Shown piece by piece: positions 3,046-57,817 of a stretch of 64,000 bases of DNA (its first letter is position 1; every line of letters begins with the position of its first letter). The position numbers were made by a program, and so were the translations under genes. Origin of the DNA: Antedon mediterranea. Lineage: Eukaryota; Echinodermata; Crinoidea; Comatulida; Antedonidae. The DNA lies in NCBI RefSeq assembly GCF_964355755.1, contig NC_092671.1:25170070-25234069 (forward strand), given 5' to 3'. Under the pieces are notes generated by a model. That model was given only the letters and a program-made list of their open reading frames with translations, did not search any database and was not told where the DNA came from.

Positions 3046-3059
3046 AGTATATTTAGAGG

Positions 3060-16308: not shown

Positions 16309-18162
16309 TCAATTACGTAAGTCTGGAATTGGAACATTAAACAGAATGTTTCCTGTAGTATTTGTAGGTTCTTTCTGGCTGGTTTTCGGATATGTTGGCA
16401 TTCGTACAGCAGCGACGCTTTTTCTTCTAGTTTTCTCATCCTCATCTGCAGATTCGTCCAGAAGTGATTGTCGTCTGATGAATAATCCACTGCTCTTTCT
16501 GCGTGTTCTTGATGATGTTTGTTGGACGGGTAACGACGTTCGTGGTTGGGTTGGTGACGACATTTGTGGAGGACGAGGCGTCAATGGTGGACGCGCTAAT
16601 GACGAGATGTTGGGAGGGTTTGGTGTGGATGTACTGTGTCGCCGCCTGTGGACTTTTGATAAACTAGGAGAAGCAGTCATTGGTCTTGCATTAGGTAATC
16701 CTTTTTGAGTGACAATGTCCCGAGGTGTCATGGGTCGAGAATTGTAGTCTGATTCTAATGACGTTTGTTTTCGTAAATTGCTCATGCTGTCTTTTCTCTG
16801 TGACGCTTCTTCCACTAGTTCCTGGTCGTGATGAAGGATTGGATTCAGGTGACAATTCTTCATCATAAAATAATTCTTCATCTTCACCGTCACTCGAATA
16901 ATACCCATTTCTTGATGATATTGGCATGTCCATAGAGGAACTTTGCGTTGTCATAGAAGTTCTGGAAAAAGACCTTTTTGAAACTGGGCTTGGTATTTTT
17001 GCAAAGTCAATCCGTGGCTTGTGTTCGTTCGACAGTTTAGTTGTGCTCCCTCCATTAAGTAACCCGTAAACGCGTTCAAGTTCATTTGTGAGTTTCATAA
17101 TGACACAAAGGTCTTTACAGTGTTGCGCTTGTAACTGTTGTTCAAAGTATGTAATCTCCTCCTGCAGTTTATCCTCGTAGTATTGAACAAGTTTCTTTTT
17201 CATACGCACCATTTTGGACTTGAGCATCTTAGTGTCAACTGTGTCCTTTTCCTAAAAATAAACAAATGACATGACACTATCGGAAGGTTAGTTCAGAAGA
17301 ATTTTTTGGCAGTTCACCAGATTCTCAGTGCTGTATCTAAACTTCTCCAGTATTATAAGATTATTTGGTTATATAACATCACATGTGTTTCACATGTATC
17401 TCATATACTACCATAAACCTATCCTTACATGATGCAGGAGAACCACCTGATAGGCCGTATTACCACATATATGTCAAGAAATACAACACAGAGAATCGTG
17501 TGATAGTACACGATGAACAGATTCGACAGGTTTGTTGTTATTTTTACGTTGTCTGTTTAAAATTGAATTGAAAGTATTGATATCTAATGCTGTACCTTCT
17601 TTGAGCGATTCTTTAACACTTCCATACAACCAGTATGACGCTGCTCGATAGCGTATTCTATCGGTGTTTTACCAACCTATAATTAAAAAACATATATAGA
17701 TCATACTTACTTAATACAAGAAAGAATTTGCCGCTGTTTTAGGGAATAATACATTTTAAAGGTGAAAATGCATTCAACTCAACAACAACTAATTAGACTA
17801 TACAAAATTGTGGAAAATGTTGTCGCTCTCAAATACTACTCTTTGAGTAGAGGGTTCATATTTAGATGTTTGCTCTGGTAATAAAGGACGATGGAATTCT
17901 GCTTGTTTGGTTAGTACTGTAAGTGGCTTCAGGTGAATGATGGAAATATACCTCATTAGAGGTGACCCTTGCTAGAAGATGGTGAAGATGACAAAGGCAA
18001 AGGCGACGACGATGAGGATACACGTTATGATAGGGCTAAAGTAAAAACAATTGATAATTTCCTGACTCTTAGCGTCCGGATCACAACCAAGTTTATTAAA
18101 AGTTTGACAACCTCTTCTTGTCTAGTCCACGATGCTATATGTAGAGCATTGACACCAATTGG
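16309..18162 (-). pseudogene. Ankyrin gene copy, unit 2 (exons 6-8, frameshifted)
   Basis: Exons: 6 at 18,062-18,162, 7 at 17,596-17,676, 8 from 17,251 down with the premature stop at 16,691 and the out-of-frame tail to 16,309. It carries exactly the lesions of unit 1: one base lost in exon 6, exon 6 donor GT changed to GA, and 41 bp lost in exon 8. The one residue difference noticed from unit 1 lies in an antisense/overlapping frame (K to Q context). Confidence 0.85.
17438..17529 (+). other. Plus-strand exon-like block inside ankyrin intron 7 (unit 2)
   Basis: Identical in sequence and splice context to the block at 11,547-11,638. Confidence 0.45.
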
Positions 18163-21100: not shown

Positions 21101-22787
21101 ACTAGGAGAAGCAGTCATTGGTCTTGCATTAGGTAATCCTTTTTGAGTGACAATGTCCCGAGGTGTCATGGGTCGAGAATTGTAGTCTGATTCTAATGAC
21201 GTTTGTTTTCGTAAATTGCTCATGCTGTCTTTTCTCTGTGACGCTTCTTCCACTAGTTCCTGGTCGTGATGAAGGATTGGATTCAGGTGACAATTCTTCA
21301 TCATAAAATAATTCTTCATCTTCACCGTCACTCGAATAATACCCATTTCTTGATGATATTGGCATGTCCATAGAGGAACTTTGCGTTGTCATAGAAGTTC
21401 TGGAAAAAGACCTTTTTGAAACTGGGCTTGGTATTTTTGCAAAGTCAATCCGTGGCTTGTGTTCGTTCGACAGTTTAGTTGTGCTCCCTCCATTAAGTAA
21501 CCCGTAAACGCGTTCAAGTTCATTTGTGAGTTTCATAATGACACAAAGGTCTTTACAGTGTTGCGCTTGTAACTGTTGTTCAAAGTATGTAATTTCCTCC
21601 TGCAGTTTATCCTCGTAGTATTGAACAACTTTCTTTTTCATACGCACCATTTTGGACTTGAGCACCTTAGTGTCAACTGTGTCCTTTTCCTAAAAATAAA
21701 CAAATGACATGACACTATCGGAAGGTTAGTTCAGAAGAATTTTTTGGCAGTTCACCAGATTCTCAGTGCTGTATCTAAACTTCTCCAGTATTATAAGATT
21801 ATTTGGTTATATAACATCACATGTGTTTCACATGTATCTCATATACTACCATAAACCTATCCTTACATGATGCAGGAGAACCACCTGATAGGCCGTATTA
21901 CCACATATATGTCAAGAAATACAACACAGAGAATCGTGTGGTAGTACACGATGAACAGTTTCGACAGGTTTGTTGTTATTTTTACGTTGTCTGTTTAAAA
22001 TTGAATTGAAAGTATTGATATCTAATGCTCTACCTTCTTTGAGCGATTTTTTAACACTTCCATACAACCAGTATGACGCTGCTCGATAGCGTATTCTATC
22101 GGTGTTTTACCAACCTATAATTAAAAAACATATATAGATCATACTTACTTAATACAAGAAAGAATTTGCCGCTGTTTTAGGGAATAATACATTTTAAAGG
22201 TGAAAATGCATTCAACTCAACAACAACTAATTAGACTATACAAAATGGTGGAAAATGTTGTCGCTCTCAAATACTACTCTTTGAGTAGAGGGTTCATATT
22301 TAGATGTTTGCTCTGGTAATAAAGGACGATGGAATTCTGCTTGTTTGGTTAGTACTGTAAGTGGCTTCAGGTGAATGATGGAAATATACTTCATTAGAGG
22401 TGACCCTTGCTAGAAGATGGTGAAGATGACGAAGGCAAAGGCGACGACGATGAGGATACACGTTATGATAGGGCTAAAGAAAAAACAATTGACAATTACC
22501 TGACTCTTAGCGTCCGGATCACAACCAAGTTTTATTAAAAGTTTGACAACCTCTTCTTGTCTAGTCCACGATGCTATATGTAGAGCATTGACACCAATTG
22601 GCTTAAAAGTAGATAAAGGTGTTCAGAGTATGGTAAAATTCGGTAGAATTCTCTCAAGAAATTTCTCAAGAATATTACTATTAGACCTACTTACATATTG
22701 AAAGTTGCTTTTGAATATACCTTTGGAACCCTTTATGAATAATCTTTATTCCGTTTTTCAATTCTATTATTGTTAACATGCCTAGAC
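18134..22787. repeat. Tandem unit 3 of the ankyrin 3' region (no Helitron)
   Basis: Homologous to units 1 and 2 but with many small differences and no Helitron: the target is intact near 19,461. At its right end it does not jump back into 3' flanking sequence but continues normally through intron 5 into exon 5. It is therefore the unit still joined to upstream exons 5 and 4. The stretch 18,163-20,746 has no gene-like content. Confidence 0.9.
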
Positions 22788-24600: not shown

Positions 24601-24654
24601 GCACTATTGTGAATCATCATCATGTGACCAACAAATCTAGGTAACTGTGTGGTA

Positions 24655-26545
24655 ATACAAACTTCTTTCTGTCTGTAATCTGTGTGCAAACCATGACGGC
24701 GAAACAACGTTCACTTCTGCACTATCACTTCTTTCTGTCTGTAATCTGTGTGCAAACCATGATGGCGGAACGTTCACTTCTGCACTATCACTTCTTTCTG
24801 TCTGTAATCTGTGTGCAAACCATGATGGCGAAACAATGTTCACTTCTGCACTATTACTTCTTTCTGTCTGTAATCTGTGTGCAAACCATGATGGCGGAAC
24901 GTTCACTTCTGCACTATCACTTCTTTCTGTCTGTAATCTGTGTGCAAACCATGATGGCGGAACGTTCACTTCTGCACTATTACTTCTTTCTGTCTGTAAT
25001 CTGTGTGCAAACCATGATGGCGAAACAATGTTCACTTCTGCACTATCACTTCTTTCTGTCTGTAATCTGTGTGCAAACCATGATGGCGAAACAACGTTCA
25101 CTTCTGCACTATCACTTCTTTCTGTCTGTAATCTGTGTGCAAACCATGATGGCGGAACGTTCACTTCTGCACTATCACTTCTTTCTGTCTGTAATCTGTG
25201 TGCAAACCATGACGGCGAAACAACGTTCACTTCTGCACTATCACTTCTTTCTGTCTGTAATCTGTGTGCAAACCATGACGGCAGAACAACGTTCACTTCT
25301 GCACTATCACTTCTTTCTGTCTGTAATCTGTGTGCAAACCATGACGGCAGAACAACGTTCACTTCTGCACTATCACTTCTTTCTGTCTGTAATCTGTGTG
25401 CAAACCATGACGGCGAAACAACGTTCACTTCTGCACTATCACTTCTTTCTGTCTGTAATCTGTGTGCAAACCATGATGGCGGAACGTTCACTTCTGCACT
25501 ATCACTTCTTTCTGTCTGTAATCTGTGTGCAAACCATGACGGCGAAACAACGTTCACTTCTGCACTATCACTTCTTTCTGTCTGTAATCTGTGTGCAAAC
25601 CATGACGGCGAAACAACATTCACTTCTGCACTATCACTTCTTTCTGTCTGTAATCTGTGTGCAAACCATGATGGCGAAACAACGTTCACTTCTGCACTAT
25701 CACTTCTTTCTGTCTGTAATCTGTGGGCAAACCATGATGGCGGAACGTTCACTTCTGCACTATCACTTCTTTCTGTCTGTAATCTGTGTGCAAACCATGA
25801 TGGCGAAACAGCGTTCACTTCTGCACTATCACTTCTTTCTGTCTGTAATCTGTGTGCAAACCATGATGGCGGAACGTTCACTTCTGCACTATCACTTCTT
25901 TCTGTCTGTAATCTGTGTGCAAACCATGATGGCGGAACGTTCACTTCTGCACTATCACTTCTTTCTGTCTGTAATCTGTGGGCAAACCATGACAACGAAA
26001 CAATGTTCACTTCTGCACTATCACTTCTTTCTGTCTGTAATCTGTGTGCAAACCATGATGGCGGAACGTTCACTTCTGCTCTATCACTTCTTTCTGTCTG
26101 TAATCTGTGTGCAAACCATGATGGCGAAACAGCGTTCACTTCTGCACTATCACTTCTTTCTGTCTGTAAACTGTGTGCAAACCATGATGGCGGAATACAT
26201 TCACTTCTGCACTATCACTTCTTTCTGTCTGTAATCTGTGTGCAAACCATGACGGCGAAACAACGTTCACTTCTGTACTATCACTTCTTTCTGTCTGTAA
26301 TCTGTGTGCAAACCATGATGGCGGAATACATTCACTTCTGCACTATCACTTCTTTCTGTCTGTAATCTGTGTGCAAACCATGACGGCGAAACAACGTTCA
26401 CTTCTGTACTATCACTTCTTTCTGTCTGTAATCTGTGTGCAAACCATGATGGCGGAACCTTCACTTCTGCACTATCACTTCTTTCTGTCTGTAATCTGTG
26501 TGCAAACCATGATGACGGAACGTTCACTTCTACAGTATATTTAGA
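24655..26545. repeat. Minisatellite, 60/66-bp units, about 30 copies
   Basis: Expanded version of the array at 2,010-3,045. The last several units, including the variants with GGAATACATTC, are in the same order in both arrays, so the length change happened in the left and middle part. The three long frames (500-516 codons) across it are by-products of the period being divisible by three. Confidence 0.93.
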
Positions 26546-26559
26546 GGATCTTGTTATTT

Positions 26560-28259
26560 TACACTCTCCCATCGGAACTCATTCTAAAACCAACCACTTG
26601 ACGGCTACTGAAACCCCACTGAACGGCACTCCTGGTGAGAACCCTAAAGTGTACTATCAATTGGTCAAATTTTAAAAATCGATTGGGCTAGATGAAATAT
26701 TAAATTCCGGTTGAAACAAGAGCAGTCATGAACGCAGTTTTACAGAAAATCTTGCTCACAACTTATCGACTTGAAAGCTACTACTGCTTGTGATCTGTCA
26801 TCAGACTTGTGAACAAGATTTGATTTATGAAATTGTAATTTTTAATTGTAATAAATAAAATGGTCTCATTCAAAAATGTTAACATAATATTGTATACTTT
26901 ATTATACTCGATTTACTTTATAAATTTCTAATAATTTTATTTTAATGAATTGAGATATTTACATTTCTAATTAAACATTATATCACTTTTGATTTTAATA
27001 TACACAATAAATAATTACAACAGAACCCCTATAAAGGCACACATTCATGACCCAACAAAGTGTGCCAACACCCCCCGCCTCCCATCCCTTAATAGGAGTT
27101 GGCTACAGTAAGTGATAACAATATAAACTGTTCACTTTGAAGAAAAGTCTCCCCTAGGTTTTATCAAATGAGGAAATCTACTGTACTGTGTATATCTAAC
27201 AATATCAATCAATCAATAAACATTATGAACACAAATGATCAACATTTCTTTAAAAAGTAATTGTAATAATAAGTACAATACAGTATGCATGCATTAAAAA
27301 TTAATTTTTTTAAAATTTGATTGACAGTTATATTTGGCCATTTGACCACCTGATCGCATTGCATTTTGAGTAAACGTTTTTTGTTAATGAAAAAACATTT
27401 AAACTGATATATTTGTAAGCAAACATTTAGTAGAATAATATTTATAAAAAAAAAAATGGTTCATTCGTCCCTACATGCAGTCAAAAACAGGTCATAAGAT
27501 TTGAAACAGGCCTGACTATCAATTGGTTTGGTTTACAAACAAAATGAATATATACAGCAGATTTATAGTTTGAAAGCCTAAATTTCTCGGTTTGTTAAGT
27601 TTTAAAACTGTAATATTCTACCAACAAACAAGTATGTTTTTAGTACAAAGTGCAATCCAAGTGATGTTTAAATAGTCCACAAAGATATTAAAAAATCAAA
27701 CCAGATAAATAGTTTTCTTACATAATGAGAAGGTAGCCTATAATGTACATACAGTAAAGGCTTTTGTGCAGACTTCTGTTGTCAGACAAGAGCACCAACC
27801 GAAATTACTAGATGAAGATGATAGTTCAAATAATTGACAAAAGAATGAGTTAGAAAGAAGTTATTTGTTCTTTATATTGTTTCTTGCTTGTTGGTATAAC
27901 TGGGCATAACAGTGTTTTCCAAATAGCATGGTAAAATAGCAAAATTGCCATGTATTACATCAGTCTCAGATAGAGCATTACCAACAGGTTGTCGTCGTTA
28001 ATAAACACAAGAAAATCTCATACAGAAATCCTTGCCATTGGTGCAATCAAACTGTATTCTGTTAATAATAAACACTAGCTAATGTTGCTGTTTCAATGCA
28101 GTATAGCCGCATATGAAGTTATTATAAGAAACTTGTTATTAATTTTAAATACAGTGTTACTGTTAATAAACACAAGAAACTCTCACTGTTTTTCTTAGTG
28201 AAACCATTTCCACTGGTGCAGCCAAATCAGATTCTATCTAAATCAATGTTTGTATAAAT
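26560..28259. other. AT-rich intergenic sequence
   Basis: Copy of 3,060-4,770. No exon, RNA gene or repeat terminus is apparent apart from the putative 3' UTR of the receptor. Confidence 0.5.
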
Positions 28260-29306
28260 CTACAGCACTTGTTTTAATGGAATAGTCTCATTTGGCCCAA
28301 GAATGTCTTTTCCAAAATCAGGATCTTGTGAAGACTTAGAATTTGACCTTATGGTGGAATGTCTAATTGTTGTTGTTGTTGTTCGAAAGCTGGATGCTGG
28401 CTCATGTGCAAATCTCGAAAAACATGGCATAAACTTGACGCAACACCACATTTTCAACAAATTCTTTTTAAAATTTTGTCCAATGAATGTGTACAACACC
28501 GGATTTATTACACTATGAGAGAACAAAATGCCAACAACCACTGCATGAACATCTGGCTGAAGATCTGTAAAAGTTACAGCGATATAAAATGGTGAAAAGA
28601 GTATTACGAATGATAAAACTATAGAAATAGCAAGAATAAGCACACGTTTTGATGATTTCCGCGTTGTGTTGTTTTGTTCAATCTGTTGTGATGAAGCCAT
28701 GGCATACACAATCAGAACATAACAGAGGATAATTGCAATCAACGGTACTGCATAGTTCAAAGAAAACATGTAATACTTATAGTATTCATCGAACAATCTG
28801 ATTTGACAATAATTAATGCCTTCCCACTCCAGAATGTGTGTATGTACCCATATTGGTATGGAAACAATTCCTGAAGCTATAAAAGTTAGAAAACAAACAC
28901 ATTTTGCGGATTTTTTCGTACGGTAAACCTTCGAAGAAATGCAATGCACGATGGCGAAATACCTGTCAAGACTCAAAATAACAATAACATAAACAATGTT
29001 TAAATTCTTCCACAATTCCAAACCATGATAAACTACACAAAAAGTGTATGAAGGGCTAAAACAATAAAATGTTCTCCAAACGTTGTTACCAAAATAAAAT
29101 ACACCATTTATACAGTCCAGTACAGCCAGGTTGAAAATGAAAATATTTGGTATATTTTGCAAGTTTTTAAATTTTAAAATCATTACAATGATTATTAGGT
29201 TGAAGGCTATTGCAATAATAGATGCTGCATATTTAAAAATCAAGAGAGCATCAACCTCAATAGGACCGTCCGTTGAATTCTCAGCAATAGTATTATTATC
29301 AGCCAT
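28260..29306 (-). CDS. Class A (rhodopsin-type) peptide-like GPCR, copy 2
   Basis: Near-identical duplicate of the receptor at 4,771-5,820, 348 residues from the MADNNT start at 29,306. The visible differences are one residue in TM5 (CYVLIVYAM here, CYALIVYAM in copy 1) and one fewer Thr codon in the C-terminal poly-Thr run. LDRY, NPVLY, the ECL Cys pair and both N-terminal sequons are unchanged, so both copies look functional. Like copy 1 it is intronless and lies 3' of ankyrin-derived sequence on the same strand. Confidence 0.88.
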   Translation of the reverse strand: MADNNTIAENSTDGPIEVDALLIFKYAASIIAIAFNLIIIVMILKFKNLQNIPNIFIFNLAVLDCINGVFYFGNNVWRTFYCFSPSYTFCVVYHGLELWKNLNIVYVIVILSLDRYFAIVHCISSKVYRTKKSAKCVCFLTFIASGIVSIPIWVHTHILEWEGINYCQIRLFDEYYKYYMFSLNYAVPLIAIILCYVLIVYAMASSQQIEQNNTTRKSSKRVLILAISIVLSFVILFSPFYIAVTFTDLQPDVHAVVVGILFSHSVINPVLYTFIGQNFKKNLLKMWCCVKFMPCFSRFAHEPASSFRTTTTTIRHSTIRSNSKSSQDPDFGKDILGPNETIPLKQVL

Positions 29307-29837
29307 TTGAATACACTGACACACTAAAACAGAGTATAATTCAATAAACTTCTCAGACTGTCCTCTACAATCAAAGTTATAACTTCTTCTGATTCTGTTC
29401 AGTTTTCCTTGCATTTATATAGTCGTCAATTTAATCTCTTAACCAATGAGAAGCTTCCATTTCTGAACAAATCAAAATGACATTCTAGGGAAGTTCTCAT
29501 GTTTTTCTACATAAAATTAAGACTGATCTGTATGCATACAAAGTTCAGATCAGAAACCAACAATTAAACTTGGATAACAATTTAATTTAAACCACTTTAA
29601 TAATGAATCTCTTCCCAATCATAAACAAATTCACTGGGTCATAATCCCAGAGGTTTTTTTAGTTAGGTATAGTACACATTTTCACAACTGTATAATATTG
29701 AATTTGATGCGGGTTACAACCTAGCATGATTGCACCAAAAAGCTTTTCAGCATGACTGGGACATTCTTCATGGTTACATTTTATGCAATTTTATTGTTAG
29801 TTATGGAAGATTGTGTTAGAATTAGATAACAATCGTA

Positions 29838-31060
29838 GCTATATGTAGAGCATTGACACCAATTGGCTTAAAAGTAGATAAAGATGTTCAGAGTATGGTA
29901 AAATTCGGTAGAATTCTCTCAGAATATTACTATTAGACCTACATACATATTGAAAGTTGCTTTTGAATATACCTTTGGAACCCCTTATAAATAATTTATA
30001 TTCCGTTTTTCAATTCTATTATTGTTAAGATAAAGCCATGCATATTGTGTCGGCTCTTTTGGTGCTCCATAGAAACAAAAACACATTCTGGCACTTTAAC
30101 CTTGAGTATGCAAAACAGTGTGATAAAAACGTTCAAGCAATGTTAAGGATTTATATTACTTTTTATATGATTGTCCGTTTGAGGCCTAATTCTATGGTGT
30201 GCTATCCATGATAAAGTTAGTTAACACAAAATGACGCTATCTATTGATTGCCAATTTGAATTGCAAGATGGTTGTAGTGTTTCCCAAAGGGCATAATAAC
30301 GTATTGCGTTTAAGTCTTATGTTATATATTATATTTTTAACATCTATATCATCTCCATAATTTTGAAGTTAAATGCATTAGTTAATTATTATGGATAAAG
30401 AATTATTATTTCTATAATGTTGAACAATCTATTATGTAAACGATGGTTTATGAAAAAGAAACAAACCATGAACGCAGCAGTTATATTTACAAGATACTAA
30501 TATTCATGTCGGAACATGAGAGATTTTTTAAAATGAAATTTCCTGCAGAAGATAATGCATTATTGTATTCCTTAAATTTAAATTTAAATACATTAGTAAT
30601 TAAAGAATGAGAATTATTTCAATGGTTCTTAAAAGTGCATATGGGTCTAAAAACGTATTGTAATCGGTATACAATGTAAATCATTGTATAATATTAATTA
30701 TAATAATTTTGTTGTTTTTAACAATAATTGTATTGTTATTGGAATGGTAACCATCTGGTAACAGTACACTCAAGGAAGTAAAGAACTTCTTGAGCTACAT
30801 CTTTAATATCAATATTAAAATTTCATTACGTCAGTTTATTTCCTTATAAATTGTTCAGTTTCAATATTGAATATTATTGATTAAAGCATAGGTAGATACA
30901 TGGAGGACCCACCTCGGGCCCCTTATTTCTCATCCTAGTTTGTGGTACACCATCATCCTTAAAAGAGAAGTAAGCTGAGAATATCTCGAATACCATCCAA
31001 AACATTGATACATTCTTCCTTTTAAGAAATTAGGCTACATGGTGTATTGGAAACTATTTT
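29838..31060. other. 3' flank of the parental ankyrin unit
   Basis: Starts with a 29-base stub of ankyrin exon 6 (29,838-29,866) and part of intron 5, then continues as the 3' intergenic sequence shared with units 1-3. No genes are seen. It ends where a LINE has inserted. Confidence 0.6.
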
Positions 31061-32231
31061 AGACATTATTAAAGACATTGTTAATAAGAACACTTTTTTA
31101 ACATCAAACGAAATACTGGTGAAACTACAATGTAAAACAAACTGGTTAAATGAGTATTTGTGCATTATTAAGGCAATACCAATTCAATGGAAACGTATTA
31201 TTAAGGAGGTAGATATTTTCAATTGTGATGATAATGATGAATTAGTTGGGACCAAGTATGAGATTAATACTACCAAACTAATATACTCATGGTTTGGGAA
31301 AGAATATTTCATTATTCCAATGTCACAACTAAAATGGGAAGAGTACTTCAATGATAACAACATTGATTGGAAAACTTCTTGGTTACGGAAAGTATGTAAA
31401 ATGAAAGATAAGAAACTAGCACAATTCAATTATAAGATGTTAGATAGAATACTGCCTACCAACAAACGGCTGTATCAGTGGAAAGTTAAGGAAACACAAA
31501 CGTGTGACAAATGTGGAGAAATTAAAAATGAAAATCATTTGTTTTTTAGTTGTAGATTTATTCAGAAATATTGGAGGAAAATGCTTAGTATCTTTGTAAG
31601 TTTAAATCACAATAATATATCATTTAAACAATTAATACTAGGAACGGGAGATAAGCTAATAGATTATATTTACACTTTTGCAGCATTTACTATTTATAGA
31701 ATAAAAATGTTATCTTCACTAAATAAGCCAGTGGGTAAATCTTTATGGAATTCATTTAAAAGCAATATGTTATATAACATTGAATGTGAAACATATAACA
31801 ATAAAGAAACAAGTATAGAAAAATGGGTAGCTTTAAGAAATACGATTATGATAATATAATTTCTAATTTGATACGATTAACAGAAAAAGAATTACAGTGA
31901 TACGGGTTACTGGTGGTACTGAGCTATTATTGTTTTTTTTTATTATGTATATAAATATATTGTATAATCCGGGTTGTAAAATAAAAACAAACAAATGAAA
32001 ATGTGTGAACTATTTTAAAACGGGATAGATGATAATGGTGATCCTGTCAAGTGTATAACAAAATATAAGAAAATTAATGAAAAAAGGAGTAATACAGAAT
32101 TCATATATGTAAAAATGTTACTTATGAACTGTAACGACATTTACAAGTTAAATAATACGATTTTATGTAATATGAGATAATATGAATGTGACTAAAAGTG
32201 GTGTTTGCGCCACAAAAGAGAAAAAAAAAAA
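31061..32231 (+). mobile_element. 5'-truncated LINE (zf-RVT-type ORF2 C-terminus)
   Basis: Insertion relative to unit 3, which reads GGAAACTATTTTTTACTAAT straight through. The encoded tail (stop at 31,859) contains FNYKMLDRILPTNKRLYQW followed by CDKCGEIKNENHLFFSC and WRKM, the Cys/His pattern of the zinc-binding domain found after reverse transcriptase in L1/Tx1-like LINEs. About 370 bases of 3' UTR and an A-run follow. No RT domain remains. Insertion into a T-run hides the target duplication. It is present only in the parental unit. Confidence 0.88.
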
Positions 32232-33637: not shown

Positions 33638-36600
33638 TCAATTACGTAAGTCTGGAATTGGAACATTAAACAGAATGTTTCCTGTAGTATTTGTAGGTTC
33701 TTTCTGGCTGGTTTTCGGAGATGTTGGCATTCGTACAGCAGCGACGCTTTTTCTTCGAGTTTTCTCCTCGTCGTCTGCAGATTCGTCCAGAAGTGATTGC
33801 CGCCTGATGAATAATCCACTGCTCTTTCTGCGTGTTCTTGATGATGTTTGTGGGACGGGTAATGACATTTGTGGTGCTGTTGGTGACGACATTTGTGGAG
33901 GACGAGGCGTCAATGGTGAACGCGCTAATGACGAGATGTTGGGAGGGTTTGGTGTGGATGTGTGCCGTCGCCTGTGAACTTTCGACAAACTAGGAGAAGC
34001 AGCCATTGGTCTTGGAATATGTAATCCTTTTTGAGTGACAATTTCCCGAGGTGTCATGGGTCGAGAATTGTAGTCTGATTCTAATGACGTTTGTTTTCGT
34101 AAATTGCTCATGCTGTCTTTTCTCTGTGACGCTTCTTCCACTAATTCAACCATACTTGCATCTCTACGTGGTCGGTTCATTGGCGTTCCTGGTCGTGATG
34201 AAGGATTGGATTCAGGTGACAATTCTTCATCATAAAATAATTCTTCATCTTCACCATCACTCGAATAATACCCATTTCTTGATGATATTGGCATGTCCAT
34301 AGAGGAACTTCGCGTTGTCATAGAAGTTCTGGAAAAAGACCTTTTTGAAACTGGGCTTTGCATTTTTGCAAAGTCAATCCGTGGCTTGTGTTCGTTCGAC
34401 AGTTTAGTCGTGCTCCCTCCATTAAGTAACCCGTAAACGCGTTCAAGTTCATTTGTCAGTTTCATAATGACACCTAGGTCCTTACAGTGTTGCGCTTGTA
34501 ACTGTTGTTCAAAGTATGTAATTTCCTCCTGCAGTTTATCCTCGTAGTATTGAACAAGTTTCTTTTTCATACGCGCCATTTTGGACTTAAGCACCTTGGT
34601 GTCAACTGTTTCCTTTTCCTAAAAATAAACACATTTGAAAATGACATGACACTATTGGAAGGTTAGTGCAGGAGAATTTTATTGGCAGTTCATTAGATTC
34701 TCGGTGCTGTATCTAAAATTCTCCAGTATCACAAGATTATTTGGTTATATAACATCACATGTATTTCACATAAACCTAACCCTTGCATGATGCAGAGGAA
34801 CCACCTGATACGCCGTATTACCACATATATGTGGAGAAATACAACACAGAGAATCCTATGGTGGTACACGATGAACAGATTCGACAGGTTTGTTGTTATT
34901 TTTACGTTGTCTGTTTAAAATTGTATTGAAAGTAATGATATCTAATGCTGTACCGTCTTTGAGTGATTTCTTAACACTTCCATACAACCAGTATGACGCT
35001 GCTCGATAGCGTATTCTATCGGTGTTTTACCAACCTATAATTAAACAAGAAATATTTCTTACAAAAAACGCTGCTCGCTTATTGACGTAACAGTTTTAAA
35101 GATAATATTGTCCCTCTGGAAAATATTTGTTATTTCCAATTCTTTTTAATGTGTCATTTTATTGTCACATAATAGGCATTTTACCTGAAAAAATGTAATT
35201 TAAAGCAAAAAATACTTAAATTGTCTGTCAGACAATGGTTTTTGTGTTATAATTAAACGTTTCTTTTCTCTTTTTAAACGTGAAAAAATATTTTGTTACA
35301 GAAGTGAATAACTTTGATATGAAACACAGACTCAATTTCTGTCACTTTAGTTTATTTCATTGCTAAGGTCAAGCCTAGGGGGTCACTTCATCAGGCCTAG
35401 ATACTTCAAGTATCCTATTACAAACAAAAACTTTAATAGACTGTTTTGATTATCTGACAGCGAATTACAGTATTATAGTCAAATGGGACTTATAAATACC
35501 ACAAATGCGTTGGGATTTGTAATTTTAGCATGACATGTCCTAATAGACTCTTTTCCCAGACGTTTTTGGGTCCAGCAGCTGGGACCTATAAATTATAGTG
35601 GAGTGTCCATTTTAGCAAAAACGTCAGTGTCTAGTATTATAACTGCTGCTTGCTTTCAGCTAAAAATTAGTCATCTCTTGTGACGTAGCGGGCTAGAGCA
35701 GCAGCGTGAAAAACATATATAGGCCATAGCATACTGCACTTAATACAGAAATACAAGAAATTATTTGCCGCTCTTTTAAGGAATAATACATTTTAAAGGT
35801 GAAAATGCATTCACGGCGACGACGACGAGGTTTCACTTTATGATACGGTTAAAGAAAAAAACAACGGACAATTACCTGACTCTTAGCGTCCGGATCACAA
35901 CCTAGTCTTATTAAAAGTTTGACAACCTCTTCTTGTCCAGTCCACGATGCTATATGTAGAGCATTGACACCAATTGGCTTAAAAGTAGATAAAGATATTA
36001 AAACTATGGTAAAATTCGTTAGAATTCGCTCAAGAATAGTACTATTAGACCTATATACATATTGAAAGTTGATTTTGAATATACCTTTGGAACCCCTTAT
36101 GAATAATTGATATTCCGTTTTTTAATTGTATTATTCTTAAGATTGCCTAGACACTGCAGTGCTAGTGACATGTTTGTCATTAATGGCGTCCCATCTTTTG
36201 AGGATATCTAAGAAAATCTGTCTTTTCATTGTTACAGAGAATGTCAGCTACCAAAAGTGAACTGATAGACCTTATTATGGTATCATCATTTGAATCATCT
36301 ACGCTCCATAACAAAGATGAGATGATCTGATATCGGTGTTTTTTTGTGTCTGCCTTTTTTATTTAAACTTATTTATGCAATTGATTTTGTAACTATGGAC
36401 GTCCGTTTCCGAAATAAGGTAAAATGAATGAAATGAATGATTGAATGAATGCGATTATGTAAAATAAATAAACATTAAAATCAGCTGAATCGACCAATAG
36501 GTTAATTTCTCTCATAACAATGCTCATCCAATGATTACAATTCAACAAGAATACCGTATGAATTATTAGGAATTGATTTCTATGTTTTTATTCTGCATGT

Positions 36601-42600: not shown

Positions 42601-44135
42601 TGTAAATTTAAAAGCTGTAGATCGAATCGCATTTTGCATTCACCAAAAAATTATTAACAGTCCAATTAAAAATAACAAATTATAGACATAATTCTTGATA
42701 TGCAGATGTCTAAACCATTAAACCACTGGGTCTTCATATTATACAATATAATTATGTTTTTTACAGGACTGCTGCGAAAGTTATTGACTTAGGAATTGCT
42801 TGTGATAAGGAAAATCCGCGCTGGGTTTCACTTGGTCGATTCCGACGAAAGTCAACAACAGATACAATTATGGAGCTAAACAGTTTTGTTGCGCCCGAGT
42901 TTGCGAATGGCACCTGCTGGAGCAGGGGTGGACATTTTTCAACAGCCACGGACGTATGGTCATTCGGAAACATGCTGGATGAAACAACGCCATTTGTCAC
43001 TGTACGCACCAAGGCAAAACTACAAAAGTTAATTGAAGGATGCACAGTAGAAGATCCTACCTTAAGAATAACAACGGAACAAATCCAATAGAAATTGGAA
43101 TCATTAATTCTGAAGATACAGATGGAATATCCTAGATTCATATTATAGTCTACATTGTAGTTGATATCATTATTACCTTATCATGTTTACATTTAATGTT
43201 TTTATGTGGATCTCCAAGTAGATTTATAATAAATGTTCAGTATATTTTATATTAGTTGTGAAGAAAACAATGTACAGGTATTTGTGACAGCTAAAATACT
43301 AATATCCGGAATGGTGTCAAATAAGTTTTAAGCGTCAAGGTATTCGTTCAGAAACAATAATACACTTTCTCAACGCCTAACGTTCAAAATGCAAGATTTG
43401 TTATATGATTCAGTGATAAATCAAAGTTAGCTTTAGGCGTGAATCGTAATCCTATTTATACACAAATATGACAATTCCTTAAAAAAAAAAAACAACAAAA
43501 AAACGTGAATCAGATTGATGTATATACACTTGACATGTAGATATATCTTACATAGACAGACACACTATTTGAGTCATTAAAATTATACAAAATTGAAAAT
43601 CTCTTTTGAAAGAAAATAAATAATTAATTAGGCTATCAATCGTCTGACATTACTTATTCTCTAATATTTGCCTTATATAAGACCTTGCAATTTTATTCAA
43701 ATGCAATAAATACGATTCCCAAACCCAAATAGTGTATACACATTTCTATAGTTACAACGTTTATTGTAATTTTTGGATACATAAAAGCTTCTGCAAACAT
43801 CGAAACCTTTGTAAAATAATGTTCACTTTATTTCCGCAACAATGATTTGGTTGCAGATTTACTTGCAATAAGTGATATTAAAGCTGTTCTCCATAAAGCT
43901 GAATGTAAACATGCACAATACTATACTATATAGCATTATTACTTCATTGAATGAATGTGTTTAAAAACAATGCAAGACTTACATTATCTTTTTGTAGCAC
44001 ATCCGCACCATCATTTAGAAGTTGTTTAAATCTTCCAACATCAGCAACTTTGGCGGAATAAAGCAGTTCAGAAATAGTATCTGTATCGTCCTGTTCACTT
44101 CCCATTGTATGTATTTCACAGCTCAAATTTGACAT
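33638..44135 (-). CDS. Ankyrin-repeat protein with coiled-coil, Ser/Arg/Pro-rich tail (intact parental gene)
   Basis: Eight exons, all joined in phase 0: 1 at 43,983-44,135; 2 at 38,265-38,369; 3 at 37,707-37,805; 4 at 36,737-36,835; 5 at 36,155-36,247 (least certain, weak donor); 6 at 35,876-35,977; 7 at 34,954-35,034; 8 at 33,638-34,618. The product is about 570 residues. Exon 1 gives MSNLSCEIHTMGSEQDD and the first repeat start (LLNDGADVLQKDN). Exon 2 carries RTVLHWASNSGS, exon 3 GLTPLHEACLAGH, exon 4 GYTTLMCAAGNG, exon 6 VNALHIASWTGQEE and exon 7 KTPIEYAIEQRHTG. Exon 8 opens with a basic coiled coil (KKKLVQYYEDKLQEE) and ends in Ser/Pro/Arg clusters with many potential phosphosites. Ankyrin repeats bind proteins; the partner is unknown. 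A kinase-like gene lies antisense in intron 1. A second possible first exon lies at 50,200-50,352. Confidence 0.83.
34796..34887 (+). other. Plus-strand exon-like block inside ankyrin intron 7 (parental unit)
   Basis: Fourth copy of the 92-base open block: EEPPDTPYYHIYVEKYNTEN then PMVVHDEQIRQ, bounded by TGATGCAG and GACAG|GTTTG. It differs from unit 1 at several residues without stops or indels. Confidence 0.45.
36985..37335. mobile_element. Inverted pair of tRNA-derived SINEs
   Basis: The stretch around 36,985-37,095 (AATTGGTCAGATATTTGCCC ... ACGCAAGTAATTCTCGGGTG) reappears reverse-complemented at 37,250-37,335 (CCGAGAATTACTTG ... AAATTACGTCAGATTAAGG). A third fragment of the same body lies near 37,500-37,590. 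The right-hand copy still has its tRNA-like head at 37,183-37,258. They sit in ankyrin intron 3. Confidence 0.65.
37183..37258 (+). mobile_element. tRNA-like SINE head (tRNA-Glu/Asn-like pseudo-tRNA)
   Basis: Shows a Pol III A-box-like GGTGGTCTAGAGGC, a five-pair anticodon stem with a 7-base loop CTATTGA, and a perfect T-arm GTGGG-TTCGAGT-CCCAC. The acceptor arms do not pair (AGCCCGG against CCCGAGA), so it is a SINE head or pseudo-tRNA rather than a working tRNA. Confidence 0.6.
38771..38870. repeat. 25-bp tandem repeat, 4 copies
   Basis: Four head-to-tail copies of GGGCGTCCGTTCAAATAGCA plus GCTCT, with one G-to-A change in the third. It lies in intron 1 of the ankyrin gene. Confidence 0.92.
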
Positions 44136-46685: not shown

Positions 46686-49497
46686 ATGGATAGTTCTAAT
46701 GCCAACGTAGAATATACACGTTCGTCATCTGTCACTGTTACTAGACTACTTGACGATCTTGTAAGATTAGCAGTAGAAAATCTGCACAATACTAAGAAGA
46801 GTAGGCCTATTAACGACAGCGAAGTATTTACAACTGTCGTCAAACCAATTGACATCAATAATCATATGCCAAAAGCTAATGCTGGGACATCTGGATACAC
46901 AACGTATGTGCTTAATAGAAGATTCACATTTGAAGAATATTTGTCTACTTTGGTAAAGTCAATTGAGACAACGGATGGAATTGATTGGCCTAAAAAAGAA
47001 GATGGTGAACCAGATGCAACAGGTAATTTAAAATTGGTAGACCATGCAGTAACTTTGAACGTCATGTTGTTTGCTTTATTATTACTATTTATATTATTTT
47101 TTTGAAAGCTAAAGAAATAAATGTTATTTTGCATTTGGATTTTATTGAATTCAATTCAATCAATTCAACTTTATTTCAGACAAACTGTCCATATGAAACA
47201 CATAAAGTTTACAAAAACAACACATTATTATGGCTATACTGATACTAGTTAACACACGTAAAAGTATACATGAGATTAAATATACAAAAGTTCTGTCCAT
47301 TTCTGTGAATATTTTTTGCCATTTATTCATTTACTTGATTCATCAGGTTTAAAGAACATCATCGACGGAAATGAAATAAGCCATTCAAAGACGACTGAAG
47401 CACAAGCTAAGAAACCCGTCGACATCACCGGTGATAGCAAAAGAAAGCATCTACAAACGACTGAACCAAAGACTAAGGAACCAGTCGACATCATCGATGA
47501 TAGCAAAAGAAACTATCTGAAAATGATTGAACCACAGACCAAAAGGTCCGTCGACATCATCGATGATAGCGAAATAAAGCCTCTACAAACGACTAAACCA
47601 AAGACTAAGAAACCAGTCGACATCACCGGTGATAACATAAGAAAGCATCTGAAAATGATTGAACCACAGACCAAAAGGTCCGTCGACATCATCGATGATA
47701 GCGAAAATAAGCATCTACAAATGACTGAACCAAAGACTAAGGAACCAGTCAACATCACCGGTGATAACAAAAGCAAGTATCTGAAAATGATTGAACCACA
47801 GACCAATAGGTCCGTCGACATAATCAATGATAACGAAAGAAAGCATATGGAAACCACTGAACCAAAGACTAAGGAATCAGTCGACAACATTGATGATAAT
47901 ATTCAACTACCTCAAAGTAATTCAAAGAGATTGTTAAAGGCGTAGGATATAATCACTAGAAAATGTTCAAATGTAATCATTTTTATAGGTCTACCGTTAT
48001 TTTTAAAAAAATGTTGTTTATTATTACACAGGATTCAAATTACTTCACTCATTCAGAAGAAAAATTAGGAGGATATTTAAGAACGATAACCGAGCATCCG
48101 AATATTTAGATGGTTATAATAAAATTGATGAAGAAAATTTGGAACCAATCTACAATCGTCATGATTCTAAGCCGCATTGCTTAGGCTCTGGTTCTTCTGG
48201 CGTAGTAAATCTCATGGTACTTACTGAAGGTGATCAGAAGATGTTAGTGGCAGTTAAGTCTTTCCCTTGTGAAGATTCATTATCAAGAAAAAAGAAAAGA
48301 AAAATTAATAAGAAGATAACTAGAGAACTGAAGGTAATTCTTATTACTATAATGTCTCCCGAACTTCTCCATTTACAATGGAAGTTTTACAGTACATGTC
48401 TCTGAATATTTATATAAATGAATAAAAGCACATTTAATTTTTGTCACAGTTTATGGACAGACTTCGTGAAATTCCAGAGTTTCCAGAAATCTATGGTGTC
48501 TGCAAGAATCAAAGTGGCTATCACATAATCATGGAATTTATTGGCAATAAAGAGATCAGACAGTCACAGACTATCCTTGATGAGTTTCATAAACAATACA
48601 ACAATGGATTTCCTTACACAAACAGAAGACGGGATATCATGTGGATGAACATTTTCCTTGACATCATCAGAGGCATTCGCAAAATGCACGAAGAGGGTAT
48701 TATTCACTGCGACATTGCTCCAAGAAATGTTCTTTTATACAAGAATAATTATAAAAGGTAATAATAATAATAATACCCATACATAACCTACATGATACTG
48801 TGTAAGTAAAGTTTAAACTGTAAATTTCAAAGATGTTGGTTAATGTTTACGACAAACAGCATTTAGCATCCACTTAAATATAATAACTGGATCAATTACA
48901 TAAACGTAACAAACCATATCCATGATGACTCTAAATAAAAAACACAACAATACAACAATATCAACATTTAAACGCATTAGAAGAAATTCTAAATTTGAAA
49001 CGATAAAGGAGAGGACGTTGATGAGAATGAGAAAAATTCTAACTCGGAACCTTCTGCTTGATATTTAGATTGGAATTGGAAGTCTTTCATGGTATACAAT
49101 ATAATTATGTTTTTACAGGACTGCTGCGAAAGTTATTGACTTAGGACTTGCTTGTGATAAGGAACATCCTCGCTGGCTTTCACTTGGCCGATTCCGACGA
49201 AAGTCAACAACAGACCAAATAATGGATCTAAACAGCTTTGTTGCGCCCGAGTTTGCCAATGGCACCTGCTGGAGTAGAGGTGGACATTTTTCAACAGCCA
49301 CGGACGTATGGTCATTCGGAAACATGCTGGATGCAACAACGCCACTCATCACTGTACGCACCAAGGCAAAACTACAAAAGTTAATTGAAGGATGCACAGT
49401 AGAAGATCCTACCTTAAGAATAACAACGGAACAAATCCAATCGAAATTGGAATCATTAATTCTGAAGATACAGATGGAATATCTTAGATGCATGTAA
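46686..49497 (+). CDS. Protein-kinase-like protein with N-terminal 22-residue repeats
   Basis: Five exons: 46,686-47,022; 47,347-47,916; 48,032-48,333; 48,450-48,757; 49,119-49,497. All have GT-AG borders and matching phases (1, 1, 0, 2), giving 631 residues. Residues 1-112 are unknown (VTRLLDDLVRLAVENLHN). Residues 113-302 hold about 8 charged repeats alternating EPKTKEPVDIIDDSK and ITGDNK forms. The kinase domain starts near 350: Gly loop GSGSSGVV (354-361), VAVK Lys378, a possible alpha-C Glu401, catalytic loop HCDIAPRN (489-496) with Asp491 and Asn496, DLG instead of DFG (513-515), APE (548-550) and DVWSFG (568-573). Cys replaces the HRD Arg and the segment after APE is short, so substrate specificity and even activity are uncertain. 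It is antisense to and within the ankyrin gene when the distal first exon is used. The exon 2 donor (CAAA|GTAATT) is chosen by phase; reading on meets TAG at 47,943. Confidence 0.82.
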
Positions 49498-51876: not shown

Positions 51877-52735
51877 GATCCTAAATATTTATATTCTTCT
51901 ACTCTATCTACTTCATTACCAAAGCCTTTTATGTTAACACTGAGGATACCGTGTCCAGTCATTTAAAGTATTGTTGGACAGACAGCATGGAAACGAAACG
52001 ATTTCCATCACAATAAGCTTGTAGACTTATCTCCAACTTTTCATACGGAAATAATGTGTTGTCTTACTTGATGACGGGACAGACAGACAAAATATTGAAA
52101 TTTACATTATTACCATTCTATGATGTGTAGGTAAATAAAATAATACTCTTCCAATTTGGAAGAGGAGTTTAAATAATAAGGAAATTATTTGGATTTAGAC
52201 CACATTCTACGACTCGTGTCTTACCGTTTCTGGAAGCTGATTAGAAAACAAAACACGTTTGCACGGCGACAGCATTTTGTTTAAAAATAATTAACAATGA
52301 AGTTTGTTTGTTTATTTGAAATGATAATGTGTACATACACATTAATTATTTTAATATCTACTGTCAGCAGCCAGACATTACTTTTTGTCCAGAATAGGCT
52401 CAAGCAAGAATAGGTTCACATGTTGTCTTCACAAGCTCTGTAAATTATGGTTCTTATACATTGTTTTGGAGAATGGAAACTCGGGAACTTACCTGAGGCG
52501 ATGAGTTGTTTCCATTCACTTGTATCTCCCAAAAAAAACTTCTTATAGTTCGGTTTAACGATTTATAACGTACAGATTTCTGATGCTGGATTATATGAGT
52601 ATGGTTATTACAACTCTTTTAACCCAACCCCTGCTATCGCTGTTCTAAATGTATATCAGCCACCATCTATAAACTCTCGTCGGTGTTTTTTAACTAACAA
52701 CCAAAAGAGCGTTTCTAGTGACACACCGTTATGCC

Positions 52736-52777
52736 TTAACTGCAAATCATGGAAGTACATCCATGATTTGCAGTTAA
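52736..52777. repeat. Perfect 18-bp inverted repeat (hairpin)
   Basis: Arms TTAACTGCAAATCATGGA and TCCATGATTTGCAGTTAA are separated by six bases (AGTACA). It lies between the Ig relics, so it may be part of a small palindromic insertion rather than a host regulatory site. Confidence 0.9.
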
Positions 52778-53255
52778 CGTATAATTGTGTAATCTGACGT
52801 CATTTTTGCTGCGTACAGTATAGTATTGTACGTGATGAATTTGATTCAAAACTGGTAAAACCTGATACAATTGCAATTGAAAGAATGACACTGAATTTAC
52901 ATGCTATCTTGACAGTGAAGCTTTAGATGTTACAAGAAATTGTACAATCATACTTAATGTATTATTATCTGATGTGGCAATTAAACCTAAATTACTATCA
53001 GTACAAGAGCCAACTAATGTTCATTTCCAGTGTTCTGCAAGAAACTTTAAAACAAATAGTATCAAGTATGAATGGCAGGTTTCGCCATATGTTCCTGGAG
53101 ACATCTTTTCTTCTACGACGTCAGTTTTGAAAATCACAAATCTGAATTTTGATAATACTTTACTCGAAAATCAACTTTTTAATATTTCATGTTTTGTAAG
53201 AGAAGATGGAATGGTTTGGAATGCATCCACTACTTTGAATATAAAACGACAGGTC

Positions 53256-54556
53256 CAGGGCATCATTTATAAGGAGCGCCTGCGCGACCGCGCTCCTCCG
53301 CGCTCCTCAACAGGCTTCGAGGAGAGCAATTTATCGCGCTCCTTAATTTTCAAAATAGAGCCTAGCTTTTGACAGTGTTGATTTTTCTGTCAAGAGGCCT
53401 AAAAACACGTGGATTTTTAAAACTTAAAACCAATCTAGGCCTAGGCTAATAATATATAAGCTAAGTTATAAAGCTACAAGCCTAATGGCAGTCCCTTGTT
53501 TTTAAGGATCGCGAGCGCGATCGCCATCAACAACCTTCGAAAAGGAGAGCAATTCATCACGCTCCATCTCACAGTCAGGTACCAACAAAGGGGATTCCCC
53601 TGCCTGCGCGCATTCAAGGGCGAGTTTACTTCATCGCCTCATAGTGCAACCAGTACGGTGTCATAGAAACACCTCCTTTACAGGAAGATCATGTCCCAAC
53701 CAATAATTTTTCCCTTTATGTTTTTATGGAACAAGTTAATAAAATATATTTAATTTTAAAAGGAAACATTAATATAGGAGGCCGAAATATAATGTTTATT
53801 ATTTAAAAAAGCTTAGCTGCTGGTTGCTTTAATTATGTCATTTTGAAGATGGATTATTTCTTCGAAAGTTCTAACCAATTTTGGTCACTCAAATCCTCCT
53901 CAAAACACGTGCTGACGTGTGACGTCAGCATCTTCTAGAAGCTCTCTCAGCCCTCCCCTATTGTGCGTGCGCCCATGTGTGACACATGTAAACACGATCA
54001 AATATCTTTCTTAATTATTTTAAAATGACACTTTGTAACTTATTATCAATATTTTAATGGCTGTTGCATGTTAGAATTGTATAATTTATGAATTGCAGGT
54101 AAATACTTTTCAGGTTTTCTGTCTGATTTCTAGGCCAACAAGCTAGGCTAAAGGCATATAGTTGGCCAGGACAGGATTCTCCAGGCTCCTGAAACCCAAT
54201 CTACCCAGGCAGGCCATAAAAAAAAAATTGGCTTGAGTTTTTTTACTGTAGAATAATACGATCCCCACGGAAAATATTGTGTGTAAAGGTGGGTGTGGGG
54301 GATTTTAGGGGAGAGGTACAGTATACATTTGTTGTGCCCGGGGGGGGGGGGGGGTTATCCCCTGTCGGGCAAAAAAATGTGTACACAAAATTAATAAGGG
54401 CCAGCCATTTTTAATAAGGGCGACCATCCTTCAATTTCAACATAAATATTTGAGGAGAGCGATTTAAAATTTTTGCAAGGAGAGCGAATTGCTCTCCTCG
54501 GTGATTTGAGGAGAGCGATTTGTTGCTCTCCTGGGTTTTGCATACGTGATGCCCTG
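53256..54556. mobile_element. hAT-like non-autonomous DNA transposon
   Basis: 1,301 bp with perfect 10-bp terminal inverted repeats CAGGGCATCA/TGATGCCCTG, flanked by the direct repeat CAGGTC (53,250-53,255 and 54,557-54,562). CAGGG termini are typical of hAT elements; the 6-bp repeat is shorter than the usual 8, so the superfamily is tentative. Inside are GAGGAGAGCGA/CGCTCTCC-rich ends, a poly-G run (about 54,342-54,355) and no transposase. It interrupts the Ig gene within a codon-aligned position. Confidence 0.87.
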
Positions 54557-54598
54557 CAGGTCCATATTATTCTACCAACGACACTACTCAACGATGAT

Positions 54599-55309
54599 GA
54601 AAACAAAAAGAAGCTTTAAACACTTGTATTCTCATTTCGTTAAAAAATATGCAACAGTGCCCGATAGAATCAAGTCCAGATGGGAAAAGGAACTTGATAA
54701 TACAAAATTGCAATGGGATATGATATTCACAACTTTGCATAAATGCACAATCAATACGAAACTTAAAAACTTTCAATATAAATTTATTCACCGTATCATT
54801 TATACTAACTCATTTCTACATAAGATATCAATTGTTGAATCACCAATTTGTGAATTTTGTTTAGAAAAAGAACAAACTTTAATACACATGTTCGTGGAAT
54901 GCAAAATAATTGATGTCATGTGGAGGAAAATATAAGTTATTATTGAACAGTTTAAAAGAAAAGTGACTTTAGATAAAGAAAGGATATGTTTTGGTATTGA
55001 AAATCATAGAAATAATTATGCAATTAATAACTTAATACTGATTGTAAAATTATATATTTATAACTGCAAAGTTAACGAACAAAAACCTCACATAAATCAC
55101 TTTAAATCGGTATATGAGAGGTATAAAGAAATTGAAAAGTACATTGTTTTTAAAAATAGCTAGACTGTTGGTGTGATATGTTTTGTAACTTGAAAAGGTT
55201 ACTTTATTATTATTTTGTATTACTTTGTAATGTAACCAAGTTAAGTAATGTATACTGTTTTATGAAATATAGAAAATAAAATAATAATAAAAAAAAGAAG
55301 AAAAAAAAA
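54599..55309 (+). mobile_element. 5'-truncated LINE with 19-bp target duplication
   Basis: Flanked by the direct repeat GACACTACTCAACGATGAT (54,580-54,598 and 55,310-55,328) and ending in an A-rich tail. The encoded fragment contains FQYKFIHRIIYTNSFLHK, then CEFCLEKEQTLIHMFVEC and MWRKI, the same zinc-binding C-terminal domain as at 31,061 but from another subfamily. A stop interrupts it at about 54,933, and a second open piece runs to 55,163. About 711 bases of a much longer element remain. Confidence 0.92.
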
Positions 55310-55799
55310 GACACTACTCAACGATGATCAGGACCTTAACAGTAGTATTGATAGGCCTACAACTAAATAATCTAACCCAATAATAGTTGGAGTCGTTATA
55401 GGAACGGTAGTTGTTGCTATAGATGTGGTATTGTTGATAGTTATTGCTCTTAATCGCCAAAAAGTACGCATATTCAGAAAGAAATCTGTAAACTCAGAAA
55501 CAGAGGTTAATGAAACACAATTGTATGCTGTTAGAAAAAGGAATAGAATGACAAGCAACGTAGATGGAGTTGGAGATTTTTGTGATAATGCATCAGTATC
55601 CAACCAACAAGATTGTAACAAGTGTAATAATAATTGGAATACACAAGATAATGATGACGTTCTATACGAAAACAGACCTTTTAAAGACATGCGAAATGCA
55701 GAACTACAGTGTGATGAGCCAAATATGACAAAATCCACTTCACCTGAGATAATAGACAGAGAGGAAACAGTCACTTATGCTACCGTCTTGAAAAAATGA

Positions 55800-56540
55800 T
55801 AATAACATAAAAAAATGTATCTTATAGGGCATACGTATTTTAAAATAAATTAAAGTAACATGGAAAAGCTTAAAATCTATAACTTGAAAACAATTTAAAG
55901 AAGAAAAACACCGTTATTGCTTTTTTAACACGTTACTTATTTTGGCTGCCAATTAAATAATCTCTATAATTAGTAATAATTGCCGAAATTGTTTTTGGGA
56001 AATTAGAAATTGTGTTTACATGTATGTTGAGGGTATATACTACTTACTCAATACGATCTTAGAGAGTAACGCCCCTATATTATGCACAGTACTTTAGCTT
56101 AAGATGTACAGTATATTTTTGTTCTGAAAAATAAGTTGATTGTTTGGTTGCACGGTTTTAATTAATTGATAAGCTAAGACACAAGGAAAACTGAATCCAA
56201 TTATGTATAGTCCCCATCCTCAAAACAATTATGTTTAATTTTTAATACCCGATAGGCCCTGTTATATAATTAAATAGAGCATTTCAGAATACATTTTACG
56301 TTACACAAAATGTTTAGGCCTACAAATAAATAATTGATAATAAATCATTATTTCTTAAATTATTGAATAACTGATAAACTGATAAACTGATAAAAATACT
56401 TTTATTGCAACTTTTGGGTTGAATTATACAAAAATATATACTTAGACTTAAATGAAAAAATATATCAAATCCATCAACGATATAAATCAAAAAACACAAA
56501 AACATCGAACAACAGACAAAATGAAGTCAAGTCAGGGAAC
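55800..56540. other. AT-rich spacer
   Basis: No exon or RNA gene recognised. The right part (from about 56,330) may be the 3' UTR of the LINE that follows on the minus strand. Confidence 0.45.
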
Positions 56541-56571: not shown

Positions 56572-57534
56572 TTACCACTTGTGAAAGAGACCAAAGTTTA
56601 CAATAAAATTTTTTGATCGTTCCGTTTTTATTTTTGGAATGCAAAATTCTTTAACTTGTCTTAAATTGTATCTAGATTTAGGCGCTTTTGGAAGAAGGTG
56701 ATGAAGTCTATGGGAAGGGTTTTTAAGTTTCTGATAGTAATCCTTGCACAGTCTAGTTCGACGTTCACATAGCACAGGCACATTACATTGAGCCATTGCT
56801 TTGTTGTAACTGAGCTCTGGGAACGTGATTCTAAGCGCCCTTCGTTGGATACTTTCCAGTTGGTCAGACTGCAATTTAGTTAAGCACGTTCCCCAAACGG
56901 GGACGGCGTATTCTAGTACAGGTCTGATAACACAACAATAGAAATAGCATAAGGCTTGGGCGTCTAGACCGGACCGGCGCAATTGTTTAAGGAAATATAA
57001 CCGTGAGTTTGATTTAGCTATCAAAGAATCAATATGGGGTTGCCATGATAAATTGTCACATATAATAATTCCAAGGAGCTTAGTACGGCAAACCTGGTTA
57101 ACACTACATTTATTAATAATTAGAGGATTAAATATCGACTTGTTTTTCTTACAACTCACAATTAATTCACATGTTTTTTTAGCATTGAGGGTCATATGGT
57201 TAAGCCGAGTCCATGCAAGGGCCGAGTTAGCTATATTTTGCAAGTTACTATTGGACAGTTTAGACACCCTTTCGAAAACAGTAGTATCATCCATAAATTT
57301 AACACATGGTTTACCATTTAAAAGGTCATTGATAAAAATAATAAACATAATAGGGCCAATCCACGACCCCTGGGGTATGCCTCCTATTCTATTGAATAGA
57401 ATATCAATTAAAAAAACATCCTTTAATGAAAAAAGAACAATACTGTAATTAAACCAGTTGCGGCAAAAGTCGAGGAGTGTTGTTTTTTGTAAGAAATATT
57501 TCTTGCATGGAAAATAACAGCTAGAAGTGAGGCC
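56572..57534 (-). mobile_element. LINE reverse transcriptase fragment (CR1/Jockey-like)
   Basis: An open minus-strand frame from about 57,534 to the stop at 56,572 with RT motifs in order: LLDFCRNWFNYS, GGIPQGSWIGPIMFIIFIND, KFMDDTTVF (FxDD active site in place of YADD), LLGIIICDNLSWQPHID and CYFYCCVIRPVLEYAVPVWG, then the thumb and C-terminus. There are no internal stops over about 320 codons, so the copy is young, but it lacks the endonuclease and N-terminal RT and so is 5'-truncated. Confidence 0.88.
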
Positions 57535-57817
57535 TAATTAATAATAATTAATGGATTTACTTTTCTACCGTTGGTGGCTGAATTCATCTTCAGGAATTTG
57601 GAATTCGCCCTCTCTTGTGCAACAAAATAATGGCTGATTGCCTTAGCAAACATAAACAGTTTTTTACAATAATAATTAATAATTCTTTGGTTGGATAAGC
57701 CCAGTCAAAATAGTGTATTTGGCCCAGTTAATAAAATCTCAGGCGCAATCTCATACACGCTGGTTGTGAAAGCGGAATCAAATGTGTAAACGGTGAGTGT
57801 ATATTTTAACCACTTTA

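Follow-up and report, generated by a model that had tools for sequence, protein, structure and literature searches.

A decayed receptor gene cut by two transposable elements in Antedon mediterranea, and the single-exon Ig-ITIM family to which it belongs

The stretch of DNA analysed here (the window) comprises 64,000 nucleotides of the crinoid Antedon mediterranea, C2:25,170,070-25,234,069 in a genome of 354 Mb and 11 large chromosomes. Its plus strand carries the remains of a receptor gene. A 5' remnant (52297-52880), delineated by alignment to seven paralogues, contains an ATG, a signal-peptide-like start and the first two immunoglobulin domains (Ig1 and Ig2) in a broken frame. It is followed by a third Ig-like domain (Ig3; 52881-53255) with a C2-type C...W...C pattern, the frame of which is open from 52885. 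Two copies of the 6-bp target-site duplication CAGGTC (53250-53255 and 54557-54562) enclose a non-autonomous DNA transposon of 1,301 bp (53256-54556, plus strand) with inverted ends, CAGGGCATCA...TGATGCCCTG. Next comes a stranded 36-bp piece of the receptor linker (HIILPTTLLNDD; 54563-54598, plus strand), which includes the left target repeat of a second element. This element is the 5'-truncated 3' end of a LINE (54599-55309, plus strand), consisting of a zf-RVT coding part and an A-rich tail, and it is bordered on its right by the second 19-bp target-site duplication (55310-55328). The plus strand then continues with the remaining linker (QDLNSSIDRPTTK) and a private stop codon, TAA (55329-55370), and with a transmembrane (TM) segment (about 55383-55445) and cytoplasmic tail whose frame is open and ends in a stop (55371-55802). 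In the tail lie the relic of the first C-terminal ITIM (55704-55721), reading LQCDEP where the paralogues have LNYAEL, and an ITIM that is still present, VTYATV (55770-55787), both on the plus strand.

Other features of the window were recorded as well. A seven-TM-receptor-like open reading frame occurs twice in near-identical form (4771-5928 and 28260-29414) and a coiled-coil frame four times (10418-11360, 16309-17251, 20747-21689 and 33638-34618), which suggests recent local segmental duplication. Tandem repeats with the unit LLSVCNLCANHDGETTFTSALS and similar ones, at 2000-3056 and 24645-26675, leave several frames open on both strands. Part of a kinase-like gene (VIDLGLACDKEHPRW...) is found in two copies, at 42714-43091 and 48007-49497, upstream of the pseudogene.

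Do the separated receptor pieces belong to one gene? Excision of 1,307 bp, the DNA transposon together with one CAGGTC, closes the first gap, and excision of 730 bp, the LINE with one of its 19-bp repeats, closes the second. Both excisions together yield a single frame that connects the third Ig domain with the tail. The joined flanks read ...TLNIKRQ-VHIILPTTLLNDD-QDLNSSIDRPTTK-TAA-SNPIIVGVV...; with one copy of each repeat retained, the longer reading is ...STTLNIKRQVHIILPTTLLNDDQDLNSSIDRPTTK, the TAA at 55368-55370, and then SNPIIVGVVIGTVV.... Aligned to intact paralogues, the joined frame is identical at 182/302 positions (E 5e-121), and at 183/303 and 157/244 positions in two further comparisons; the identity of about 60% extends from end to end, linker included. 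Because this alignment is unbroken, the joined reading is more than a lucky coincidence of frames. The paralogues have a single copy of each target repeat in the alignment, and the 36-bp fragment between the two elements matches their linker, for instance that of paralogue p965 (RKIHVNLPTTLLNDDQYFNSSIDGPISKL). Ig3, linker, TM segment and tail of the window copy are thus homologous to one receptor family in one frame.

Six-frame searches with the tail and with Ig3 located the close relatives on the same chromosome. Seven paralogues were obtained, five at C2:34,918,451-34,970,112 and two at C2:18,662,465-18,667,036, and each of them encodes the first Ig domain, the TM segment, everything in between and some or all of the tail in one open frame of 446-528 codons. 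Their linker between Ig and TM is of the same kind as that of the window copy. An intron or additional coding sequence at this point, which would have meant that the Ig and TM parts were never directly joined, was looked for in all seven; the opposite was found, and seven intron-free, one-frame genes exclude such a separation. The original prediction had held that two insertions, once precisely removed, reunite a receptor frame, had placed both insertion boundaries, and had proposed a search for intact paralogues with the same TM/ITIM tail. The boundaries are exact, and since the intact sister genes show that the pieces were once continuous, the reconstruction is right in its observation and in its main inference, namely that the Ig and ITIM parts were one gene. 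As regards a possible retrocopy origin of the locus, homology between the window copy and its paralogues stops at the coding ends, and no poly(A) was seen.

To which kind of transposon does the first insertion belong? In 20/20 full-length copies read, the target duplications measure 6 bp, or 7 bp in three, and none measures 8 bp; the duplication of one copy (L039) contains one mismatch. Copies differ from their consensus by 0.1-2.3%, the window copy by 0.77%. The element terminus matches 73 places in the genome with up to two mismatches, and the reversed control matches none. The element is a young, non-autonomous DNA transposon. It had initially been called hAT-like, and the possibility that it is a true hAT transposon retains some weight, although we lean against it: its ends are of the CAGGG type, which occurs in hATs, and the genome does contain hAT transposases, with 59 matches to the hAT dimerisation domain (PF05699). 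The target duplications of 6-7 bp in every copy read, as opposed to 8 bp for hATs, argue against it, as does the distance of 57 kb between any of the 73 element ends and the nearest dimerisation domain found, in a family search that gives a lower bound. Membership in hAT is therefore not supported. Longer candidate relatives of the element, of 3-4.5 kb and potential autonomous partners, lie at C5:29,876,882-29,880,165 and C10:13,602,467-13,606,964.

The second insertion displays hallmarks of a LINE: RT-associated coding sequence, an A-rich 3' tail, 5' truncation and a long target duplication. The target repeat GACACTACTCAACGATGAT occurs at two places only in the window, 54580-54598 and 55310-55328, and encloses a fragment of 711 bp. 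A frame within this fragment matches zf-RVT (E 1.9e-7), which identifies it as the 3' end of a LINE. Compared with the consensus of seven other copies, it differs at 12/699 sites (1.7%). Further LINE-type open reading frames are present in the window at 31026-31859 and at 56572-57537, the latter on the minus strand and reverse-transcriptase-like (PQGSWIGPIMFIIFINDL).

The window copy is a decayed member of the family by descent. Five frame-shifting lesions set it apart from all paralogues, at 52387 (-1), 52516 (+4), 52740-52767 (-26/+9), 52812 (+8) and 52884 (-1), although the +4 and -26/+9 regions align poorly and the lesion counts there could move by one or two. The alignment also places an in-frame TAG at 52395-52397. 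Between 52885 and the final stop the two insertions are the only frameshifts. The TAA at 55368-55370 is peculiar to the window copy, as is the neighbouring in-frame deletion of 12 bp, and does not characterise the family. The initial statement that only this TAA intervenes thus holds from Ig3 to the TM segment but not upstream, where the five frame-shifting lesions and the stop in Ig1-Ig2 had been omitted. The last ITIM of the Ig-ITIM receptor is kept, but the gene originally had three Ig domains and the tyrosine of its first ITIM has been replaced by cysteine, so that the family's tandem C-terminal pair is reduced to VTYATV. Part of Ig2 is replaced by a perfect palindrome of 42 bp (52736-52777, 18-bp arms and a 6-bp loop, found by exact match and alignment), which is absent from all aligned paralogues and is probably a template-switch mutation. 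Within the TM segment of the pseudogene, codon 55422-55424 encodes an aspartate (VAIDVV) at a position that is uncharged in the paralogues.

How long did this copy serve before it was lost? A codon branch model over 449 codons assigns the window branch a dN/dS of 0.59 (approximate 95% range 0.40-0.88), a value below 1 (2dlnL 6.27) that does not differ from the background of 0.50 (2dlnL 0.62). The branch leading to the window gene measures 0.17 substitutions per site. Set against this length, the divergence of the two insertions from their consensus sequences, 0.77% and 1.7%, shows that both arrived long after the gene copy had arisen. Most simply, the copy stayed under constraint through the greater part of its separate existence and died late. 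The distribution of the lesions, with all frameshifts in the 5' part, hints at a period of use of the 3' half alone. Could Ig3, TM segment and tail have remained in service as a shortened product after the decay of Ig1-Ig2, to die only when the elements arrived? Five of five frameshifts lie in the 5' 588 nt of a total of 1,469 (probability 0.01 on length alone), and the private indels 3' of 52885 are, the two insertions aside, multiples of three (Fisher p 0.03). Against this, the frameshift-position test is post hoc and concerns few events, branch dN/dS is alike in both halves (0.60 and 0.57), and the Ig3 frame is without a good upstream start codon; we therefore consider a shortened product quite improbable. 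Hardly credible is the idea that Ig and TM are separate exons of a gene that may still work, with the elements inside a spliced-out intron: introns commonly receive insertions, CAG/GTCC at 53250 is loosely donor-like and the sequence AATAATAG just upstream of the TM segment could act as an acceptor, but no paralogue has an intron at the corresponding place, which rules this reading out for the ancestral structure, linker codons stand in frame both flanking and between the two elements, and Ig1-Ig2 is frame-shifted regardless of splicing.

Judged from its sequence, the window copy is thus almost certainly what remains of a single-exon, inhibitory-type receptor gene that diverged from its cluster, was held under constraint, and was killed by small lesions and two insertions. 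The ancestor was a single-exon gene encoding a signal peptide, three Ig domains, a short linker, one TM segment and a tail with two tandem ITIMs. It split from the paralogue cluster on the same chromosome and remained constrained through most of its separate history. Function was then lost through the Ig1-Ig2 frameshifts, the stop before the TM segment, the replacement of the tyrosine in the first ITIM, and two recent insertions into the linker, namely the non-autonomous DNA transposon with its 6-bp duplication and the 5'-truncated LINE with its 19-bp duplication; the order of these lesions is inferred.

There is nothing unusual in a pseudogene that transposons have interrupted; the locus fixes the ancestral anatomy of the receptor gene and offers two datable insertions, and the more interesting part is the family that surrounds it. 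Membership in the immunoglobulin superfamily was established by profile, both for Ig1 of an intact paralogue (Pfam Ig_3, E 7e-13; V-set, 2e-8) and for Ig3, where a profile of 9 family members finds immunoglobulin chains in the PDB, contactin-1, SIRP-alpha and SIRP-gamma among them. Individually, Ig2 and Ig3 give only low Pfam scores; Ig3 of the window copy alone is weak (Ig_3, E 0.042), and a single-sequence AlphaFold model of Ig3 reaches a pLDDT of 35. The tail motifs of the paralogues are LNYAEL and I/VTYATL. The close members p918 and p921 and the distant members q668 and C7_3492 retain the strict C-terminal ITIM pair, its tyrosines separated by 21-22 residues; others have a single strict motif. 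A spacing of 21-22 residues between tandem ITIMs resembles that of SHP-recruiting receptors, and by this analogy intact members may signal through recruitment of SHP-type phosphatases. With a distant member as query, 60 places in the genome were found, and at 58 of them the open frame is 370 codons or longer (median 517), a count based on homology and open-frame length. By contrast, exon-sized frames of about 100-150 codons hold most of the best Ig_3 matches listed for this genome. The 58 frames form clusters on C11 (15.8-16.1 Mb), C3 (11.8 and 18.6-18.8 Mb) and C7. No description of a comparable intronless ITIM family was found in the limited set of open-access papers searched. The family could become a useful model for the expansion and decay of inhibitory immune receptors outside vertebrates.

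Does the family also include activating members? In five copies of one type (L007-L011) the TM segment contains an arginine (VIGRAVVAV), and the readable tails end before the tandem ITIM region. Two of the five are open over 446 and 472 codons; L007 lies at C2:34,965,824-34,967,242 and L008 at C2:34,924,442-34,925,782. In vertebrates, an arginine in the TM segment together with a short, ITIM-less tail is the layout of activating partners. This layout may equally reflect decay. The dN/dS of the clade is 0.74 (p965, 1.14; p924, 0.71), and a search of the genome for a TCR-zeta/FcR-gamma-type adaptor gave none above the cut-off. By analogy, one might envisage a large, lineage-specific invertebrate family divided into tandem-ITIM inhibitory and Arg-TM short-tailed members, that is, independently arisen paired receptors with transposon-aided turnover. 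We regard this as rather unlikely on present evidence, yet the Arg-TM clade makes independently evolved paired receptors directly testable.

Among known systems, the intact C2 paralogues (18.66 Mb and 34.92-34.97 Mb) are closest to the window copy. They share its domain order, linker, TM segment, tail motifs and single exon at about 60-75% identity (69-75% in Ig3 for the cluster paralogues), whereas the window copy is frame-shifted, harbours two elements and no longer has a tyrosine in its first ITIM. The vertebrate SIRP, Siglec, LILR and KIR receptors resemble the family in their tandem Ig ectodomain, single TM segment and C-terminal ITIMs, and likewise in their gene clusters and in short-tailed members with a charged TM residue. 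Unlike the crinoid genes they are, as is generally known, multi-exon, and the likeness described here is one of layout. The oyster protein CgIgIT2 is an invertebrate Ig receptor with a TM segment and a tyrosine motif, but it has five Ig domains and an ITAM (PMC11999971). Nearest in layout among described invertebrate ITIM families are the fester co-receptors (FcoR) of Botryllus, a multigene family of 520-610 aa with V-type and C2-type Ig domains, a TM segment and a long tail that can carry ITIMs; unlike the family described here, they also possess a sushi domain, alternative splicing of several exons, and hemITAMs (PMC12065747).
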